DNA of 53,561 nucleotides, from the NCBI GenBank assembly GCA_020725545.1, contig DYEV01000012.1, positions 1-53,561 of the forward strand, in the 5' to 3' direction. This document shows positions 5,345-13,685 of this stretch, piece after piece. The notes under the pieces are model-generated. The model did not search any database. It had not been told where the DNA came from and worked only from the letters and a program-made list of their open reading frames with translations. The DNA is from Desulfobacca sp. (GTDB lineage: Bacteria > Desulfobacterota > Desulfobaccia > Desulfobaccales > Desulfobaccaceae). A program made the position numbers and the translations under genes. How positions within the stretch are numbered: the stretch's first letter is position 1; every line of letters starts with the position of its first letter.

Positions 5345-6670
5345 TTACACCACGAATTCCGTCTCATCCCATTCCGGGATATTCACTTCCTTGAGATCAT
5401 CCATCAAGTAGGTGCGCTCGTTGCGGCAGAGCACTCCCAGGGACAGGCAGATGATGGTCCACAGATGTACGACGCCGAAATGTTTGGGGGCATGTTCGGA
5501 CAGTTCGTGGATCTGGGAGTGGCAGTTGTGACAGGGAGCAATACAATAATCGGCCTTTGTCTCAATGATCTGATCCAGCTTCTTCTGACCGTAGGCCAAC
5601 CGTTGTTCGTTGTAACCGCTCTGCAGGAAGCCGCCGCCCCCGCCGCAGCAGTAGTTGTTGGACATGTTGGGGGTCATATCCACAAAGTTCTCTTCCCCCA
5701 CAACGGATTTGACCACAAAGCGTAAATCCCGAGCGCATTCATCACCAAAGCTTTTGCGGATGATGTTGCAAGGGTCTTGGACGGTGAATTTGATTTTGAG
5801 GTTTTTGTTCCAGTCGGAATTGACCTTCAGCTTCCCTTCCCGGATCCATTTGGCGTACCAGGTATAGATGCTGACAATGTCAATCTTGTGAGGCAGGTTG
5901 AATTTTTGCTGTCCGGCCCGGACAGCGTATGTGATGTGCCCTCACTCGGTGTTGAGGAAGACTTTGCACCCCAACTCCACGGCCTGATCCAAGGCCAGCT
6001 TGGTCAGATGTTTCCAGGCCTCGTCATCGGCTAGGAACATGCAGTAGTTTTCACCGCCCCAGCCTTTGCTGGGATAGGTCCAGTCAGCGCCGACAATGTG
6101 CAATATTTTCCAAAGGGGTCCTAATTCATCGGGTTCGGTCACCGGCTCCCGGGAGTTTTGGTTAAGGCAAAAATACGCCCCTTTTTTATCAATGGGGGCT
6201 TCCAGGGTTTCGAAGCCAGGCTGCTCCCGAATGGCTTCGGCCACATCGTTGACGATAAACTCGAAATCTTCCGGCCGGGCCGCCATAGCGCTGCCGCAAT
6301 CGGTGCTCAAGGCTGCATCACAGGAGCGCAGGATTCCTCGGGGCCGCTGTTCCCGGGGCCAGGAGGCCCGCATGTTGTAGACCAACTGAGGAATGTTGAC
6401 GTTCATGGGGCAGGCATGCACACAGCGGCCGCACATGCTGCACATCCAGGCCCAGGGGGTCTTTTTCAGTTCTTCATCCATGCCCAGGGCCGCCATGCGC
6501 ACCACTTTGCGGGGGTCCATACCCTCCAGACCGGTGGCCGGACAACCGGCCGCACACGTCCCACAGGTCAGACAGGCATTGAGATTACCGCCGTCCGGCA
6601 GCTTCTCCATGACAATGTCTTTGAAGGACTTGCCCTCTCGCTTGGTTAACACTAAGGGTTCTTCTGCCAT
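5345..6670 (-). CDS. Selenocysteine-containing HdrC-HdrB-type Fe-S oxidoreductase (HdrD/DsrK-like)
   Basis: This is one 441-residue protein read through an in-frame TGA (5944-5942) as selenocysteine 243. The N-terminal HdrC-like part has two 4Fe-4S motifs (C33-x2-C-x2-C-x3-CP and C77-x2-C-x2-C-x3-CP). The C-terminal part has two HdrB/CCG-type domains. In the first the usual CCG is GEN and the terminal ligand is Sec in TEUGH, where HdrD/DsrK relatives have ECGH. The second is intact (C301, C341-C342-G, C380-x2-C383). The frame stays open and homologous on both sides of the TGA, and a SECIS-like hairpin follows. ATG at 6670 has AAGGATGG upstream. It lies 174 bases behind metF and probably forms the heterodisulfide-reductase-like half of the HdrA/MvhD complex. 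A simple gene caller would split it at the TGA. Confidence 0.85.
5908..5944 (-). promoter_or_regulatory. Sec UGA codon and SECIS-like hairpin in hdrCB
   Basis: After the TGA (5944-5942) come 15 bases, then GCTGTCC, loop GGGCC, and GGACAGC. This is a perfect 7-bp stem whose G-starting loop begins 22 bases after the UGA. Bacterial SECIS elements lie inside the coding region at about this distance with G in the apical loop. Confidence 0.75.
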
Positions 6671-6844
6671 AATGCCATCCTTATGTTAAAAATACTTGGG
6701 TAAGTTGCCTTTGCCGAAATTTTGTTTATACCTATAATACTCTCTTTTTTTGGCAAAGTCAATAATTAGGGCTCCCGATCACGCCGTAGGACACGTTGTG
6801 CCAGGGTGACCGGAAGCCTGAATGGGTAGTTTGCTGCTGCCCTC

Positions 6845-7777
6845 TTAGACCTGCGGCCGTGGGTAGAGGCCGCCGCCTTTGACCAGTTCGGGGACCTTTT
6901 CTTCCCACTCAATGGCCATGATGTGGAAACCCCGGACGCCGGGGACTTCCTTGAGCTCCTGGATCATTTCAATGGCCATCTTGATGCCTTCCTCGGCCTG
7001 CTTCTCTTTGGGCACGCCTTTGAGGCGGTCGATGAGATTATCCGGCACATCCATGCCCGGCACCTTGGTCTTCATGTAGCGGGCCATGCCCAGGCTCTTG
7101 AAGGGGGTAATGCCGGCCATGATGTAAGCCTTGTCGGTATACCCCTTATCCACGGCGATCTTCATCCATTCCTTGAATTTGGGAATGTTATAGATACATT
7201 GGGTCTGAATGAATTCCGCGCCGGCGGCGATCTTTTTGCCCAGACGCAGGGCCCGCAGTTCCACGTTAGGCCCGGCAAAGGGGTTTTCCGCGGCGCCGAT
7301 GAAGATCTGGGGCCGGACTTTCATCTCAAAGCCGCTGAGGAGTTTGCCTTCATCCCGCATCAGCTTAACGGTCTGGATCAGCTGCACGGAATCCAGATCA
7401 AAGACATTGGCGGACATGGGATGGTCGCCAAAGGTCTGGTGATCGCCCGTTAAACAGAGCATATTATGGATGCCGAAGGAAGCGGCGCCCAGAATGTCGC
7501 TCTGCATGGCAATGCGGTTGCGATCCCGGGTGGTCATCTGCAGGACCGGTTCGATGCCCATCTGTTTCAGACGGATGCAGGACGCCAGACTGCAGAGCCG
7601 CACCACGGAGGTCTGGTTGTCGGTGACATTGACGGCATCCACATAGTCCTTGATGAGGTGGCCCTTGTGTTCAATTTCGGCCCCGTCCGCCCCCCGGGGC
7701 GGGCCGACCTCCGAGGTGACGCCAAGATGGCCGGCAGCCATGATTTTCTCTAATTTACTTGGTGTTCTAGGTTCCAT
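6845..7777 (-). CDS. metF: Methylenetetrahydrofolate reductase (MetF)
   Basis: This 310-residue TIM-barrel flavoprotein interconverts 5,10-methylene-THF and 5-methyl-THF in the Wood-Ljungdahl pathway. Family features include the early SEVGPPRGAD segment, a QMTTRDRNR motif, LTGDH near residue 110 and AEFIQTQ near residue 190. The length suits the acetogen/sulfate-reducer type, which lacks the regulatory domain of eukaryotic enzymes. ATG at 7777 is preceded by AGAGGAAGAG. It lies 63 bases downstream of metV in the hdrA-mvhD-metV-metF series. This context indicates an enzyme whose electrons pass through Hdr/MvhD proteins instead of a simple NAD(P)H-dependent MetF. Confidence 0.93.
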   Translation of the reverse strand: MEPRTPSKLEKIMAAGHLGVTSEVGPPRGADGAEIEHKGHLIKDYVDAVNVTDNQTSVVRLCSLASCIRLKQMGIEPVLQMTTRDRNRIAMQSDILGAASFGIHNMLCLTGDHQTFGDHPMSANVFDLDSVQLIQTVKLMRDEGKLLSGFEMKVRPQIFIGAAENPFAGPNVELRALRLGKKIAAGAEFIQTQCIYNIPKFKEWMKIAVDKGYTDKAYIMAGITPFKSLGMARYMKTKVPGMDVPDNLIDRLKGVPKEKQAEEGIKMAIEMIQELKEVPGVRGFHIMAIEWEEKVPELVKGGGLYPRPQV

Positions 7778-7840: not shown

Positions 7841-8539
7841 TTATGAATGGGCGCTGCCGTGCTGCGGCTCGGCTTTGCGCAAGTCTTCCCGAATAATCAC
7901 CCGGGGGCCGCCGTCCCGGCTGGTCCGCCAGTTCTTGGGGTCCACCGGTTTGGTGAAGGAGTCCACCTGACCCAACTTTTCCAGGCGTTCATAGATAAGA
8001 TGCCAGCCGCAGGGGGTGTCTTTGCTGATTTCGCATTTGCCGGCCTCGGAGCCGCCGCACGGTCCGTTCAGCATCCGTTTGGAGCAGCGGGCAATGGGGC
8101 AGATGCCGCCGGTGCTGGCCAACACACATTGGCCACAGCCGGCGCAGCGCTCTTCAAAGATGCCACGATCGGCGTTGATCCCCATGAAATGGGTATCGAC
8201 ACCCGGAAAAACGATCTTATCATTATACATTTCGGTGAGATACTGGATGCCGCAGCCACAGGCGATGGAGATGACGGCATCGGCGTTCTCCACCATATCT
8301 TTTAATTCCGCCAGATACTCTTTGTCGCACTGCCGGGTTATGGTGGTTTCCACGACTTCGTGGTCCTTGCCAGCCTGGGTGTAATACAGGCGCAGGGCCG
8401 AGCCCAGGACTTTGGCTTCTTTCATGCCGCCGGCCTCGCAGACGGTGACGCAGCCATCGCAGCCGGCTACCAGGATTTTGTTGAAGTCTTTGACATAGTT
8501 GATAATTTCTTCCAATGGTTTTGGTGTTGCCTTAATCAT
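7841..8539 (-). CDS. metV: MetV-type methylenetetrahydrofolate reductase partner
   Basis: This 232-residue Cys-rich protein matches the MetV/MTHFR C-terminal family that pairs with MetF in acetogens. An N-terminal segment (AGCDGCVTVCEAGG, about residues 25-38) resembles the corrinoid/HdrB-like start. The C-terminal half has CAGCGQC followed by CPIARCSKRMLNGPCGG, the zinc and 4Fe-4S Cys signature of MetV. TAGGAGG precedes the ATG at 8539, 18 bases after the mvhD stop. MetV is thought to carry electrons between the flavin of MetF and partner proteins, here most likely HdrA/MvhD (inference from the operon). Confidence 0.88.
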   Translation of the reverse strand: MIKATPKPLEEIINYVKDFNKILVAGCDGCVTVCEAGGMKEAKVLGSALRLYYTQAGKDHEVVETTITRQCDKEYLAELKDMVENADAVISIACGCGIQYLTEMYNDKIVFPGVDTHFMGINADRGIFEERCAGCGQCVLASTGGICPIARCSKRMLNGPCGGSEAGKCEISKDTPCGWHLIYERLEKLGQVDSFTKPVDPKNWRTSRDGGPRVIIREDLRKAEPQHGSAHS

Positions 8540-8557: not shown

Positions 8558-8989
8558 CTAAGCGGCTTTCTTGTCGTGGGCGAGGCGGATGGGGCTGGGC
8601 CCCAGGTTTTTGATCCGCTCGTCAAATTCCCTACAGATTTCGGCCCATCTGGTGCCCTGTCCGGCGGACAGGTTGTACATTTCCACCCGATCCCGTCCCA
8701 CGCCGGTGGCGGCCAGGATATCTTTGGCACGCTCCACCCGTTTGCGGGCAAACAGGTTGCCATGCATATAGTGGCAATCGCCTTCCAGACAACCGGCCAC
8801 AAAAACACCATCGGCCCCCTGCTCAAAGGCCTGGAGGAGGTGGAACAGGTCCACCCGACCGGTGCAGGGCACCTTGATGATATGGATATGGGTGGGATAC
8901 TGCAGTCGCATCGAACCTGCCAGGTCCGCAGCTGAGTATGCTCAAAAACTGCAACAGAAGGCAATAATTTTCGGTTCAAAGTTCTCCAT
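8558..8989 (-). CDS. mvhD: Selenocysteine-containing MvhD-type iron-sulfur protein
   Basis: This 143-residue delta-subunit-type protein shuttles electrons from a donor enzyme to HdrA by a 2Fe-2S cluster. The N-terminus reads FCCSFUAYSAADLAG, with TGA (8944-8942) as Sec16. The usual family sequence is FCCNWC or FCCNWU followed by SYxGADLAG. Other conserved Cys residues are C42 (PCTGRVD), C67 and C72 (GCLEGDC). ATG at 8989 is 11 bases after the hdrA stop with GGAGTGAG upstream. Starting after the TGA, at the internal ATG (8911), would remove the whole conserved N-terminus. Sec-containing FrhD/MvhD proteins are a known selenoprotein family, so confidence is high. Confidence 0.9.
8912..8944 (-). 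promoter_or_regulatory. Sec UGA codon and SECIS-like hairpin in mvhD
   Basis: After the TGA (8944-8942) come 13 bases, then CGGACCT, loop GGC, and AGGTTCG. This is a 7-bp stem with one G-U pair whose G-starting loop begins 20 bases after the UGA. Spacing and loop match those of the hdrCB hairpin, which supports both. Confidence 0.72.
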
Positions 8990-9000
8990 ACGCTCACTCC

Positions 9001-12000
9001 TTAGGAAAAGGCCAAAATGCTGGCGGTTAGTTGGTCGTCCTCATAATGCGACAACTGGATGGTATTGCCCGGACATTCGGCCGCGCAGATGCCGCAGCCC
9101 TGACAGATGGCCTCGTTGATCTCCGAGACATTGTCTTCGTTGATCTGGGGCACATTGTAGGGGCAGCTGCGCACGCAGACCAGACAGGCGGCACAGTGTT
9201 TGGGATCCACATGGGAAACCACGCCGCTGATGGTCTGTTTGGTATCGGACAAGAAGCCGCCAGCCCGCGCTGCGGCCGCCATGGCCTGGGCGATGCTCTC
9301 ACTGATGAGTTTGGGGGCATGGGCCAGGCCGCACAGGAAGATGCCTTCCGAAGCAAAGTCCACCGGCCGCAGTTTGGCGTGCGCTTCGATGAAGTAGCCG
9401 AAGGCGTTGCGGGGGAGCTTCAACATGGTGGCAAACTTTTCCGTGTCGTTGGCCATAACCCCGGCGCTCAGGATCAGGGCATCGGGATTGACCTTAACCG
9501 GCAGCTGCAAGACGTGGTCAATGAAGGTAACGCTGATGGCCTCGCCCTCTTTGCTCACCTGGGGCGTCTTTTCCGGATCGAAGCGGGCAAAAATGACCCC
9601 CTTATCCCGGGCCTGACGGTAATAATCTTCCAGGACACCATAGGTCCGCATATCCCGGTAGAGGATGACCACATCCATGGCCGGATTCAGTTCCTTCAAC
9701 TGCAAGGCATACTTAACCGCCCCCTGGCAGCAGATGCGGCTGCAATTGGGGTTTTCCTCGTTCCGGGAGCCCACGCATTGGATAAAGACGGCCTGATCCC
9801 ACTTGGCCACTTCCTCTTGGGCCTGGTGGATCTTATCGCCCAACTCCAGTTGGGTCATGACCCGGCTGTCCTCACCGTAGAGGAACTCTTTGGGCCGGTA
9901 TTCATGGCCGCCGGTGGCGATGACCACCACGCCATGGTCGATGGTCTTCTCATCTGCGCCGATCTTCAGTTTGGTGTTGAAATTACCTTTATAGCCGCCG
10001 AAGCCGATAACTTCGGCGCCGGTGTAGAGCTCGATCTTGTCGTGGCTCTTGACCTTCTTGACCAGGTCGGCTAAATAGGCCGGCACATCCATGCCTTCGA
10101 TGGTGTGGTGGATCTTTTTAGCCACGCCGCCCAGTTCGGTGTCTTTTTCCACCAGAACCGTGGCAAACCCTTGGTCGGCCAGGTTCAGGGCGGCATTCAT
10201 ACCGGCGATGCCACCGCCCACCACCAGGGCCCGGGGGATGATGTTCAGCGGTTTTTCCACCAGCGGTTTAAGCACCGAGGCCCGGGCCACCGCCATTTTG
10301 AGGAGGTGCTTGGCCTTCTCCGTGGCCGCGTCATACTCTTTCATGTGCACCCAGGTATCCTGGTTGCGGATGTTGGCCATCTCAAACATGTATTTGTTCA
10401 GACCGGCGTCCATAATGGTCTCACGGAACAGAGGCTCGTGGGTAAGCGGAGTACAGGCCGCCACCACCACCCGGTTGAGGTTCTGTTCCTTGATGACCTG
10501 CAGCATTTTATCCTGGGTGTCCTGGGAACAGGTAAAGAGGTTCTCGTCCACCATAACCACGTTGGGAAGCGTGGCGGCGTATTCCTTCAAGGCCGGGACA
10601 CTCAACAACCCACCGATATTGATGCCGCAGTTACAGATGAAAACGCCGATGCGCGGCTTCTCCTGAGAACGGTCCACCTGGGGCGGCAGTTCCTTGGTCT
10701 TGGTCATGGTCCACTTGACGTCGCCCAAGGCGGCGATGCAGCCGCCGGCTGCGGCCGAGGCCTCCATGACCGACTGGGGAATATCTTTGGGCGCCTGGAA
10801 GGTGCCGCAGACATACACCCCCGGCTTGGAGGTTTCCACCGGCGTGAAGGGGTCGGTCTTGGCCAACTGATGCTGGGTCATGTCAATACCCAATTTATGG
10901 GCCAGATTGATGACCTCGCCACTCACCTGGAAACCCACCGAGAGGGCCACGAGATCAAAGATCTCGCTCATGAACTGGCCGTCTTCAGTGACATAATTGA
11001 CCTTGACGTTGTCCCCGGGGGCCGGATCCAGGCTGTGCACCCGGCAGCGGACAAAGCGGACGCCCAGTTCTTGGGCCCGGTTGTAGTAAAGTTCAAAATC
11101 CTTGCCGTAGGTCCGCATATCCATATAGAAGATGGTGGTTTCCAGGGGCTCTTTGCTGTGTTCCATGGAAATGACCGCTTCTTTGATGGCATACATACAG
11201 CAGACCGACGAGCAGTAGGAGTTGTATTTCACGTCCCGGGAGCCGACGCACTGCAGCCAGGCCATCTTTTTGGGCTCTTGGTGGTCCGAGGGCCGCACCA
11301 GATGGCCTTCAAAGGGACCGGAGGCGCTCAGGATGCGCTCCAGCTCCAGGCTGGTGACCACGTTGGGAATCCGTTTGTAGCCCCAGACATCGGCTACGCT
11401 GGGGTCAAAGGTCTTGGCGCCGGGGGAGAGGATGACCGCGCCGACCTGCAGGTCCAGGGTCTGCGGCTTCTGGCTATGGTCCACCGCCTTGGGCTGGCAG
11501 TTAATGGCGCACTGCATACATTCGGAACAGACGCCACAGTTGACGCAGCGGGCCGCCTCGGCCTGGGCCTGTTCCGGCGTCAACCCCAGGTTGATTTCCT
11601 TGAAGCTCTTGCCCCACTCCTCCACCGGGATGTGCGCCATCTGGGCCCGGGGCTGCTTTGGCGTATCGGCGGGGATGGGATTCCATTCGCCATGCTCGTC
11701 ATAGCGCCACGGGAATTCCCGGTCTTCTTTCAGGTCCTGACCCCTAAGATAGCGGTCAATGGAGATGGCCGCTTCCCGGCCGGCCGCCACCGCGGCAATG
11801 GCGATATACGGCCCGGAGACTACATCGCCGCCGGCAAAAACCTCTGCCCGGCTGGTCTGCAGGGTATCAGGATCGGCCTCGATAAGACCCCGGGGGCTGA
11901 GTTTGATTTTATCGGCCTCGGTGATGAAGCTCAGGTCCGCTTTCTGACCGATGGCCATGATCACCACATCGGCGTCTTCGATGCGGGTCTGATCTTCGAA

Positions 12001-13452
12001 ATAGGTGGGGGCGAAGCGGCCTTGCTCGTCAAAGACCCGCTCCACGGCCTTGAGTTCGATACCCTTGACCTTGCCGCCCTCAGCCACGATTTGTTTGACG
12101 CCCCAGCGGTGCTCCAGGAGGCAGCCGACCTGCAGGGCTTCTTCCACTTCCCAGGGGTTGGCCGGCATTTCTTCCCGGGTTTCCAGGGCGATGATCTTGA
12201 CTTCGGTGGCGCCGTTGCGTTTGGCCGTCTGGGCCACGTCCATGGCCACGTTGCCGCCGCCGATGACCACCACTTTTTTGCCCTGGGTCGGAGAGGCGCC
12301 CGTCGTGGCAAATTCCTTTAAATATTCCACGCCCCAGAGGACGCCGTCGGCATCGTGGCCGGGCACCGGGATACGCAGACTGCCTTGGCAGCCCACCCCC
12401 AGGAAGACCGCCCGGAAGCCGTCTTTGGTGAGCAGACCGTCAATGGTCCGGTCGCCGCCGATGGGGCTGTTATAGCGGATTTCCACACCACAGCGCTGGA
12501 TGTAATCCACTTCCTGTTTCAGGACGTTGCGGGGCAGGCGGTATTCGGGGATACCGTAGCGCAGCCAACCGCCGGGTTCTGCGGCGGCTTCAAAAATGAC
12601 CGGTTTGTAACCCATCAGGGCCAGATGATAGGCACAGGATAGCCCCGACGGCCCGGCGCCGATAATGGCTACCGGCTGGTCATTCTTGGTCACTTCCGGC
12701 ACCGGCAGGGTGGCCCAATCCACCTGGTCGGCCACAAAGCGTTTCAGGGCGCAGATGGAGATGGGCTCTTCTACTTCAGCCCGCCGACAGACGGTTTCAC
12801 AGGGATGGGGGCAGATCCGGCCGATGGTCCCGGGCAGGGGCAGCCGGTTCATGATTAGATCTAAAGATTCCTTGAATTTGCCAACTTTAATGAGCTGGAC
12901 ATAGCCCTGGGCCGAGAGGTTGGCCGGACATTTCTGCACACAAGGAGCCCGGTCCAACTTCTTGATGCCAAAGGCCGAAGGAATGGCTTGGGGATAGAGC
13001 CGGTAGATGGCTTGCCATTCTCCCAGGCCGGCATTAAATTCATTGGGCATGGCCACCGGACAGACCTTGGTGCAGTCGGAACAGCCGGTACATTTGGACA
13101 TATCCACATACCGAGGCTCTTTCTGCACGGTCACCGTGAAATTCCCCGGCTCCCCGGAGATGGCCTTCACCTCGGACAACGTGTGGATCTCGATGTTCAG
13201 ATGTCGTCCGCATTCCACCAGCTTGGGCGAAATGATGCACATTGAACAGTCGTTGGTGGGGAAGGTCTTGTCCAATTGGGCCATAATGCCACCGATGGCC
13301 GGTTTTTTCTCCACCAGGTGGACGTAGAGACCGGCCTTAGCCAAATCCAGGGCGGCCTGGATACCGGCGATGCCTGCGCCTACCACCATGACTGCCCCGG
13401 TTTTGCCGTTGCCGCCACTTGCCGTCGTTGTTTTCTTTTCCTCTTGTGCCAT
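9001..13452 (-). CDS. hdrA: HdrA-NfnB-HdrA fusion, flavin-based electron transfer
   Basis: This is a 1483-residue cytoplasmic iron-sulfur flavoprotein. A first HdrA-like module starts at residue 21 (GAGIAG FAD site, CTGCSDCTKVCP at 121). It is split by a complete NfnB/GltD-like NAD(P)H module at about 165-575 (CVQKCP 171, CPHPCETVC 214, GAGPSG 265, GGGNVAMD 398). A Cys cluster (CVNCGVCSECMQC, 636) and the rest of HdrA-1 follow (QCVGSR 734, SSVCC 748). A second HdrA covers 934-1483: CNCG 940, GGGIAG 1079, QCVGSR 1225, SRICC 1238, and two C-terminal 4Fe-4S motifs at 1420 and 1450. So three flavin sites are expected. The frame stays open 70 codons upstream, but ATG at 13452 starts the conserved sequence and has AGGG upstream. 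It leads the mvhD-metV-metF-hdrCB operon. Confidence 0.9.
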   Translation of the reverse strand: MAQEEKKTTTASGGNGKTGAVMVVGAGIAGIQAALDLAKAGLYVHLVEKKPAIGGIMAQLDKTFPTNDCSMCIISPKLVECGRHLNIEIHTLSEVKAISGEPGNFTVTVQKEPRYVDMSKCTGCSDCTKVCPVAMPNEFNAGLGEWQAIYRLYPQAIPSAFGIKKLDRAPCVQKCPANLSAQGYVQLIKVGKFKESLDLIMNRLPLPGTIGRICPHPCETVCRRAEVEEPISICALKRFVADQVDWATLPVPEVTKNDQPVAIIGAGPSGLSCAYHLALMGYKPVIFEAAAEPGGWLRYGIPEYRLPRNVLKQEVDYIQRCGVEIRYNSPIGGDRTIDGLLTKDGFRAVFLGVGCQGSLRIPVPGHDADGVLWGVEYLKEFATTGASPTQGKKVVVIGGGNVAMDVAQTAKRNGATEVKIIALETREEMPANPWEVEEALQVGCLLEHRWGVKQIVAEGGKVKGIELKAVERVFDEQGRFAPTYFEDQTRIEDADVVIMAIGQKADLSFITEADKIKLSPRGLIEADPDTLQTSRAEVFAGGDVVSGPYIAIAAVAAGREAAISIDRYLRGQDLKEDREFPWRYDEHGEWNPIPADTPKQPRAQMAHIPVEEWGKSFKEINLGLTPEQAQAEAARCVNCGVCSECMQCAINCQPKAVDHSQKPQTLDLQVGAVILSPGAKTFDPSVADVWGYKRIPNVVTSLELERILSASGPFEGHLVRPSDHQEPKKMAWLQCVGSRDVKYNSYCSSVCCMYAIKEAVISMEHSKEPLETTIFYMDMRTYGKDFELYYNRAQELGVRFVRCRVHSLDPAPGDNVKVNYVTEDGQFMSEIFDLVALSVGFQVSGEVINLAHKLGIDMTQHQLAKTDPFTPVETSKPGVYVCGTFQAPKDIPQSVMEASAAAGGCIAALGDVKWTMTKTKELPPQVDRSQEKPRIGVFICNCGINIGGLLSVPALKEYAATLPNVVMVDENLFTCSQDTQDKMLQVIKEQNLNRVVVAACTPLTHEPLFRETIMDAGLNKYMFEMANIRNQDTWVHMKEYDAATEKAKHLLKMAVARASVLKPLVEKPLNIIPRALVVGGGIAGMNAALNLADQGFATVLVEKDTELGGVAKKIHHTIEGMDVPAYLADLVKKVKSHDKIELYTGAEVIGFGGYKGNFNTKLKIGADEKTIDHGVVVIATGGHEYRPKEFLYGEDSRVMTQLELGDKIHQAQEEVAKWDQAVFIQCVGSRNEENPNCSRICCQGAVKYALQLKELNPAMDVVILYRDMRTYGVLEDYYRQARDKGVIFARFDPEKTPQVSKEGEAISVTFIDHVLQLPVKVNPDALILSAGVMANDTEKFATMLKLPRNAFGYFIEAHAKLRPVDFASEGIFLCGLAHAPKLISESIAQAMAAAARAGGFLSDTKQTISGVVSHVDPKHCAACLVCVRSCPYNVPQINEDNVSEINEAICQGCGICAAECPGNTIQLSHYEDDQLTASILAFS

Positions 13453-13685
13453 ACATGTATCCCTATAACAATTAATGGTTGAATCCCGCGGGAAAACTGT
13501 TGCCATCGACCTGGAAACCCGACCGCCTGGGGCCGGGATCATTCTCACAACGCCATGCCCGGAGCACCGCCGCACCAACGATGGCATCTGTGGGCCGGTG
13601 GCACCAGCTTCGGCGCGGGGAAAAGCAAACGTGCCAGGACGCCGGTTTCCCTCCGGAGCCATGAGGCCGGGAACCTGACGCCCTT

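Follow-up and report, generated by a model that had tools for sequence, protein, structure and literature searches.

The window analyzed here is the whole 53,561-nt stretch of contig DYEV01000012.1 (assembly GCA_020725545.1) from Desulfobacca sp. On its minus strand it carries an mvhD gene with one in-frame UGA, located between an hdrL-type gene and the metV-metF pair; metV, metF, an hdrA-type gene, and mvhD are thereby clustered. The genes and features discussed below are as follows.

9001–13587, minus strand: hdrL-type gene of about 1528 aa (start uncertain), with HdrA domains and an inserted GltD/NAD(P)H-binding domain; co-conserved with mvhD
8997–9002, minus strand: ribosome-binding site AAGGAG in the upstream sequence, 7 nt before ATG 8989
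8558–8989, minus strand: mvhD (flpD/frhD-type) selenoprotein gene, 143 aa, identified from its translation and PF02662; stop codon TAG at 8558–8560
8942–8944, minus strand: in-frame UGA read as Sec16, the second Cys of a CxxC motif; 103/103 homologues have Cys or UGA here
8912–8928, minus strand: SECIS-type hairpin CGGACCU-GGC-AGGUUCG, 7 bp, with a 3-nt loop (GGC) that starts 20 nt after the UGA
8558–8911, minus strand: truncated ORF from the internal ATG 8911, without residues 1–26, as expected from ordinary gene calling
7841–8539, minus strand: metV, methylene-THF reductase C-terminal family (PF12225)
6845–7777, minus strand: metF, methylene-THF reductase (PF02219)
6734–6762, minus strand: sigma-70-like promoter TTGACT-17-TATTAT before hdrCB; hexamers kept in two sister species
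5345–6670, minus strand: gene for an hdrCB-type Fe-S/CCG protein with a second Sec (residue 243, UGA at 5942–5944); UGA and hairpin also present in two sister species

The mvhD reading frame and the selenocysteine machinery

Translated from 8989 to 8558 with UGA as selenocysteine (Sec), the product begins MENFEPKIIAFCCSFUAYSAADLAGSMRLQYP..., and the UGA at codon 16 is the sole interruption of a full-length MvhD/FlpD frame. The read-through product matches the Pfam FlpD profile (PF02662) with 165.7 bits over positions 1–123 of 123, whereas a product beginning at ATG 8911 covers positions 21–123 only and scores 132 bits, a loss of 34 bits together with positions 1–20. Identity to solved MvhD chains is 42–47%, and an AlphaFold model (pLDDT 93.4) matches the chains 5odc_D, 7bkb_F, and 8rvu_F with TM-scores of 0.87–0.92, the value of 0.92 being to 5odc_D.

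The source genome, which is 99.96% complete, contains tRNA-Sec (80.5 bits), SelB (388 bits), SelA (618 bits), and a Sec-type SelD (367.7 bits); the gene for the last (L146, G000:C22:51412-52329) has an in-frame UGA of its own. The preliminary description had named the absence of SelB and tRNA-Sec as an observation that would overturn its assignment of MvhD as a selenoprotein with Sec16; both are found, and that objection therefore falls away. The assignment itself is borne out by the full-length FlpD match through the UGA, the SECIS-type hairpin, and the Sec machinery, all of which are present. The same description foresaw that automatic annotation would begin the gene at ATG 8911, and this codon is indeed the next in-frame start that follows the UGA; its use would cost the conserved N-terminus. 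Across genomes, the co-occurrence of SelB with Sec-type mvhD is uninformative because 89 of 99 relatives have SelB; it falls below the cut-off in 7 of the 47 genomes having Sec-type mvhD, all 7 of them draft assemblies.

Sec-MvhD in this organism is correct and ordinary in kind, the family having been described since 2005–2009. Sec-containing FrhD/MvhD was already listed in 2005 (PMC1242214), and by 2006 it ranked third in size among bacterial selenoprotein families, with Sec-FrhD listed for Syntrophobacter (8 copies), Syntrophus, Moorella, Carboxydothermus, and others, and with Sec-GlpC occurring alongside in an operon glpC-hdrA-frhD-frhG-frhA (PMC1794560). Sec-MvhD was later reported also in Desulfococcus (PMC5109826) and in Desulfobacterium (PMC2702500). 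A 2026 review lists the FrhD family with CxxU as the only motif given, and mentions that archaeal FrhD/VhuD can contain multiple Sec residues (PMC13188914). Compared with this FrhD/MvhD/VhuD family (delta subunit of coenzyme F420-reducing or non-reducing hydrogenase, PF02662), the present gene agrees in the CxxU position and in the placement of a bacterial SECIS directly after the UGA; it differs in coming from a new species and in having metV-metF, not hydrogenase genes, beside mvhD.

Probable partners of MvhD in the metVF cluster

In 20 of 20 loci examined mvhD adjoins metV, and metF follows metV in 19, the remaining contig ending within metV. hdrL precedes mvhD in 19 of the 20, and the order hdrL-mvhD-metV-metF is found in other families of the phylum. 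Judged from this gene order, mvhD is a member of the Hdr-type methylene-THF reductase set. The adjacency to metV and metF extends to G003 (L055, a single contig of 3282536 bases), which is probably Desulfobacca acetoxidans. That genome has mvhD(Sec)-metV-metF without an adjoining hdrL or hdrCB, and a malate dehydrogenase-like gene lies upstream of mvhD; its mvhD orthologue retains UGA16 and the hairpin.

The same gene set is known from the MetVF-HdrABC-MvhD systems of Moorella thermoacetica and Sporomusa ovata, and the Moorella HdrA, in which a GltD NAD(P)H domain lies between two TrxR-like parts, resembles the HdrL encoded here; however, HdrB and HdrC are separate proteins in Moorella and Sporomusa (PMC9430772), while in the window a fused HdrCB stands apart with its own sigma-70-like promoter. 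The Sporomusa study does not mention selenocysteine (PMC9430772). In Desulfobacterium autotrophicum HRM2, Sec-MvhD (MvhD1/2/3/5) likewise adjoins HdrA or HdrL fusions and the genome also has a Sec-containing HdrD-type HdrCB protein; unlike here, the neighbors described include dsrABC, formate dehydrogenase, and hydrogenase (PMC2702500). The HdrL of Desulfobacca sp. differs from the HRM2 system in containing no UGA.

In methanogens, MvhD is a [2Fe-2S] subunit located at electron-transfer distance to HdrA. By analogy of family and gene order, the MvhD described here would be a small [2Fe-2S] electron-transfer subunit linking an HdrA-type flavoprotein to a partner enzyme, with electrons most likely passing between HdrL (NAD(P)H/FAD), MvhD, and the MetVF methylene-THF reductase. 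Among named genomes, the closest relatives of the source genome are Desulfobacca MAGs, and it carries dsrA. In a Desulfobacca-like sulfate reducer the direction would most probably be methyl-THF oxidation. Gene order suggests a physical MvhD-MetVF complex. It is conceivable that Sec-MvhD instead serves another HdrA or HdrCB partner and that the metVF neighborhood reflects shared regulation only, given that the genome holds eight MvhD-like genes and that hdrL is not adjacent to mvhD in G003. The unbroken mvhD-metV adjacency, which with metF persists even in G003, makes this unlikely, as do Sporomusa pull-downs in which MvhD contacts HdrA, HdrB, and MetF (PMC9430772).

The position of hdrCB was revised. 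The preliminary description had it adjacent to mvhD and in the same operon; metV and metF intervene between the two genes, and operon membership is doubtful because of these intervening genes and because hdrCB is preceded by a conserved promoter of its own. Across the two sister species the promoter reads TTGACT/TTGACA-17-TATTAT/TATAAT, with diverged flanks, and among the loci examined a close hdrCB downstream of metF was found only within the genus. hdrCB probably has its own transcript. The reported likeness of the two hairpins stands: that of hdrCB, GCUGUCCG-GGC-CGGACAGC, has its loop 23 nt after the UGA, as against 20 nt in mvhD, and the loop is GGC in both. Selenium might, hypothetically, tune one electron path through MvhD and HdrCB.

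Two further observations concern other genes of the source genome. Acetyl-CoA synthase beta was not found in the source assembly; three sister genomes have the gene, and a CODH catalytic subunit gene starts at a contig edge, at base 3 of G000:C15 (L175). The sister genes and the position of CODH argue against a loss of the acetyl-CoA synthase pathway, and the missing gene is probably an assembly gap. Additionally, a homologue of “type III sulfide quinone reductase, selenoprotein subtype” (660 bits; L176, G000:C12, 10053–11375) adjoins a second CODH gene, with no in-frame UGA in the matched region.

Conservation of the UGA and its hairpin

Homologues of mvhD were surveyed in the source genome and related genomes of the phylum (110 distinct genes). 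An internal UGA falls at residue 16 in 56 of these and at residue 67 in 16, while 38 have none; no UGA occurs elsewhere inside the domain in the 110 genes. Residue 16, where the state in relatives had been raised as a check on the assignment, is Cys in the other genes compared. Each of residues 13, 16, 42, 67, and 72 is either Cys or a UGA codon in 103/103 genes compared, residue 12 varies among the same 103, and His73 is nearly invariant in the family. Because every internal UGA sits on an invariant Cys, the UGA appears to track these positions, and on this comparative evidence its placement is not due to chance.

A published model of bacterial SECIS elements requires a stem of 4–16 bp, a loop of 3–9 nt with G in its first two positions, a spacing of 16–37 nt from the UGA, and an MFE of −7.5 or lower (loop length, loop G, and spacing: PMC13188914). 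The hairpin at 8912–8928, with its loop 20 nt 3′ of the UGA, satisfies the spacing, stem, and loop-G constraints of this model, in line with the earlier expectation of a SECIS near the UGA. The MFE is −14.5 for the 48-nt fold and −6.9, just short of the cut-off, for the bare 17-nt hairpin. Folding energy as sole proof of a SECIS was rejected; it is unconvincing because 3575 of 20000 synonymous recodings of mvhD (18%) reach the same energy. Rfam at the gathering threshold gave no SECIS match anywhere in the window, and a search of 8870–8990 at E up to 10 gave chance matches only.

Comparison among homologues is more informative than energy. Codons 21–26 read GCGGACCTGGCAGGTTCG in 48 of the 56 Sec16 genes and in 0 of the 47 genes with Cys16, and the peptide ADLAGS has 6 codings in the 56 Sec16 genes versus 20 codings in 20 others; codons flanking this stretch on both sides vary normally in Sec16 genes. 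The hairpin core is present in 52/56 Sec16 genes versus 1/47 others (Fisher P about 2e-23, a descriptive value that ignores relatedness). This freeze of synonymous sites, a comparative signal, shows constraint on the hairpin. On a tree of mvhD, poorly resolved because few columns are available for many rows, the Sec16 label must have changed 10 times or more, and the match between UGA and hairpin is therefore not attributable to a single shared descent.

Two relatives have unusual arrangements. One genome (G005; L057, 3382–3807 and 3912–4334) carries a tandem mvhD pair before metV, with one Sec16 and one Cys16 gene in a single cluster. In another (G032; L051, 1501–1896), a draft assembly where SelB did not exceed the cut-off, a Cys16 mvhD retains the SECIS core GACCTGGCAGGTTC; this gene appears to have converted from Sec to Cys and kept a remnant of its SECIS.

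These comparisons bear on whether the UGA could be a true stop, with the functional protein a 117-aa MvhD without the CxxC motif that starts at ATG 8911. The ORF 8558–8911 does exist as the output of mechanical ORF calling; however, residues 1–26 fit the family profile and are kept in homologues, Cys13 and Cys/Sec16 are invariant, and the ribosome-binding site precedes ATG 8989, while inspection of the sequence upstream of ATG 8911, which the hairpin directly abuts, identified none. We consider such a start highly improbable. A recent pseudogene, or a sequencing error in a Cys codon, has a negligible probability in spite of the existence of Cys versions (the 38 of 110 genes without UGA), given the frozen synonymous sites 3′ of the UGA and an identical UGA in independent assemblies, including three others of the same genus, the shared UGA by itself ruling out sequencing error.

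Decoding of UGA16 as Sec would be carried out by SelB and tRNA-Sec under direction of the GGC-loop hairpin. Taken as a whole, a Sec-containing MvhD that is produced in this way and links HdrL to MetVF is, with high confidence, the explanation of this locus.

Two selenocysteine positions in the MvhD family

Among the eight MvhD-like genes of the source genome, three paralogues carry one UGA each. Read one by one, these are not all Sec16 genes: two have the UGA at Cys67 and Cys at residue 16.

G000:C25:180643-181062: MvhD paralogue L019, UGA at Cys67, Cys at 16 (VGGUEAGTC)
G000:C29:210354-210755: MvhD paralogue L020, UGA at Cys67, Cys at 16 (VMGUHLGDCHY)

The UGA of these Sec67 paralogues is followed by a hairpin of its own (e.g., ATTTCCT-GGA-AGGAAAT, whose loop lies at 23 nt), and codons 73–78 are correspondingly constrained in Sec67 genes. 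The two Sec positions were found together in 0 of the 110 mvhD genes. A Sec67 gene also occurs in an Anaerolineae MAG (L155).

In the MvhD model the five invariant Cys/Sec residues (13, 16, 42, 67, and 72) lie at the ends of strands 1–3. From this invariance and the predicted fold, the cluster site is most likely built from the CxxC motif, Cys42, Cys67, and Cys72, and Sec16 would stand where strand 1 ends, in place of the second CxxC Cys. Since four residues ligate a [2Fe-2S] cluster and five Cys are invariant, one or both Sec sites must be cluster ligands, provided that all ligands come from those five. A published cluster-ligand set for MvhD was not found in the literature searched. We tentatively propose, as a reading about which we are somewhat less than evenly confident, that MvhD carries selenium at either of two invariant Cys (16 or 67), both probably around a single [2Fe-2S] cluster; that different paralogues use different sites and none uses both, every site having its own SECIS; and that at least one of these sites is a natural Sec ligand if the four ligands are among the five Cys. 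The Sec67 position may already be known.

To the known family, the finding adds a setting beside metVF, a view of how strong the SECIS constraint is, and the pattern of two Sec positions. The result corrects the likely misannotation of a subunit that is central to electron transfer in C1 metabolism, and the mvhD case illustrates the tight constraint on a SECIS that lies within coding sequence. With Sec at either of two positions, the family additionally offers a clean test of the role of selenium at an electron-carrying Fe-S site, as opposed to a catalytic center.
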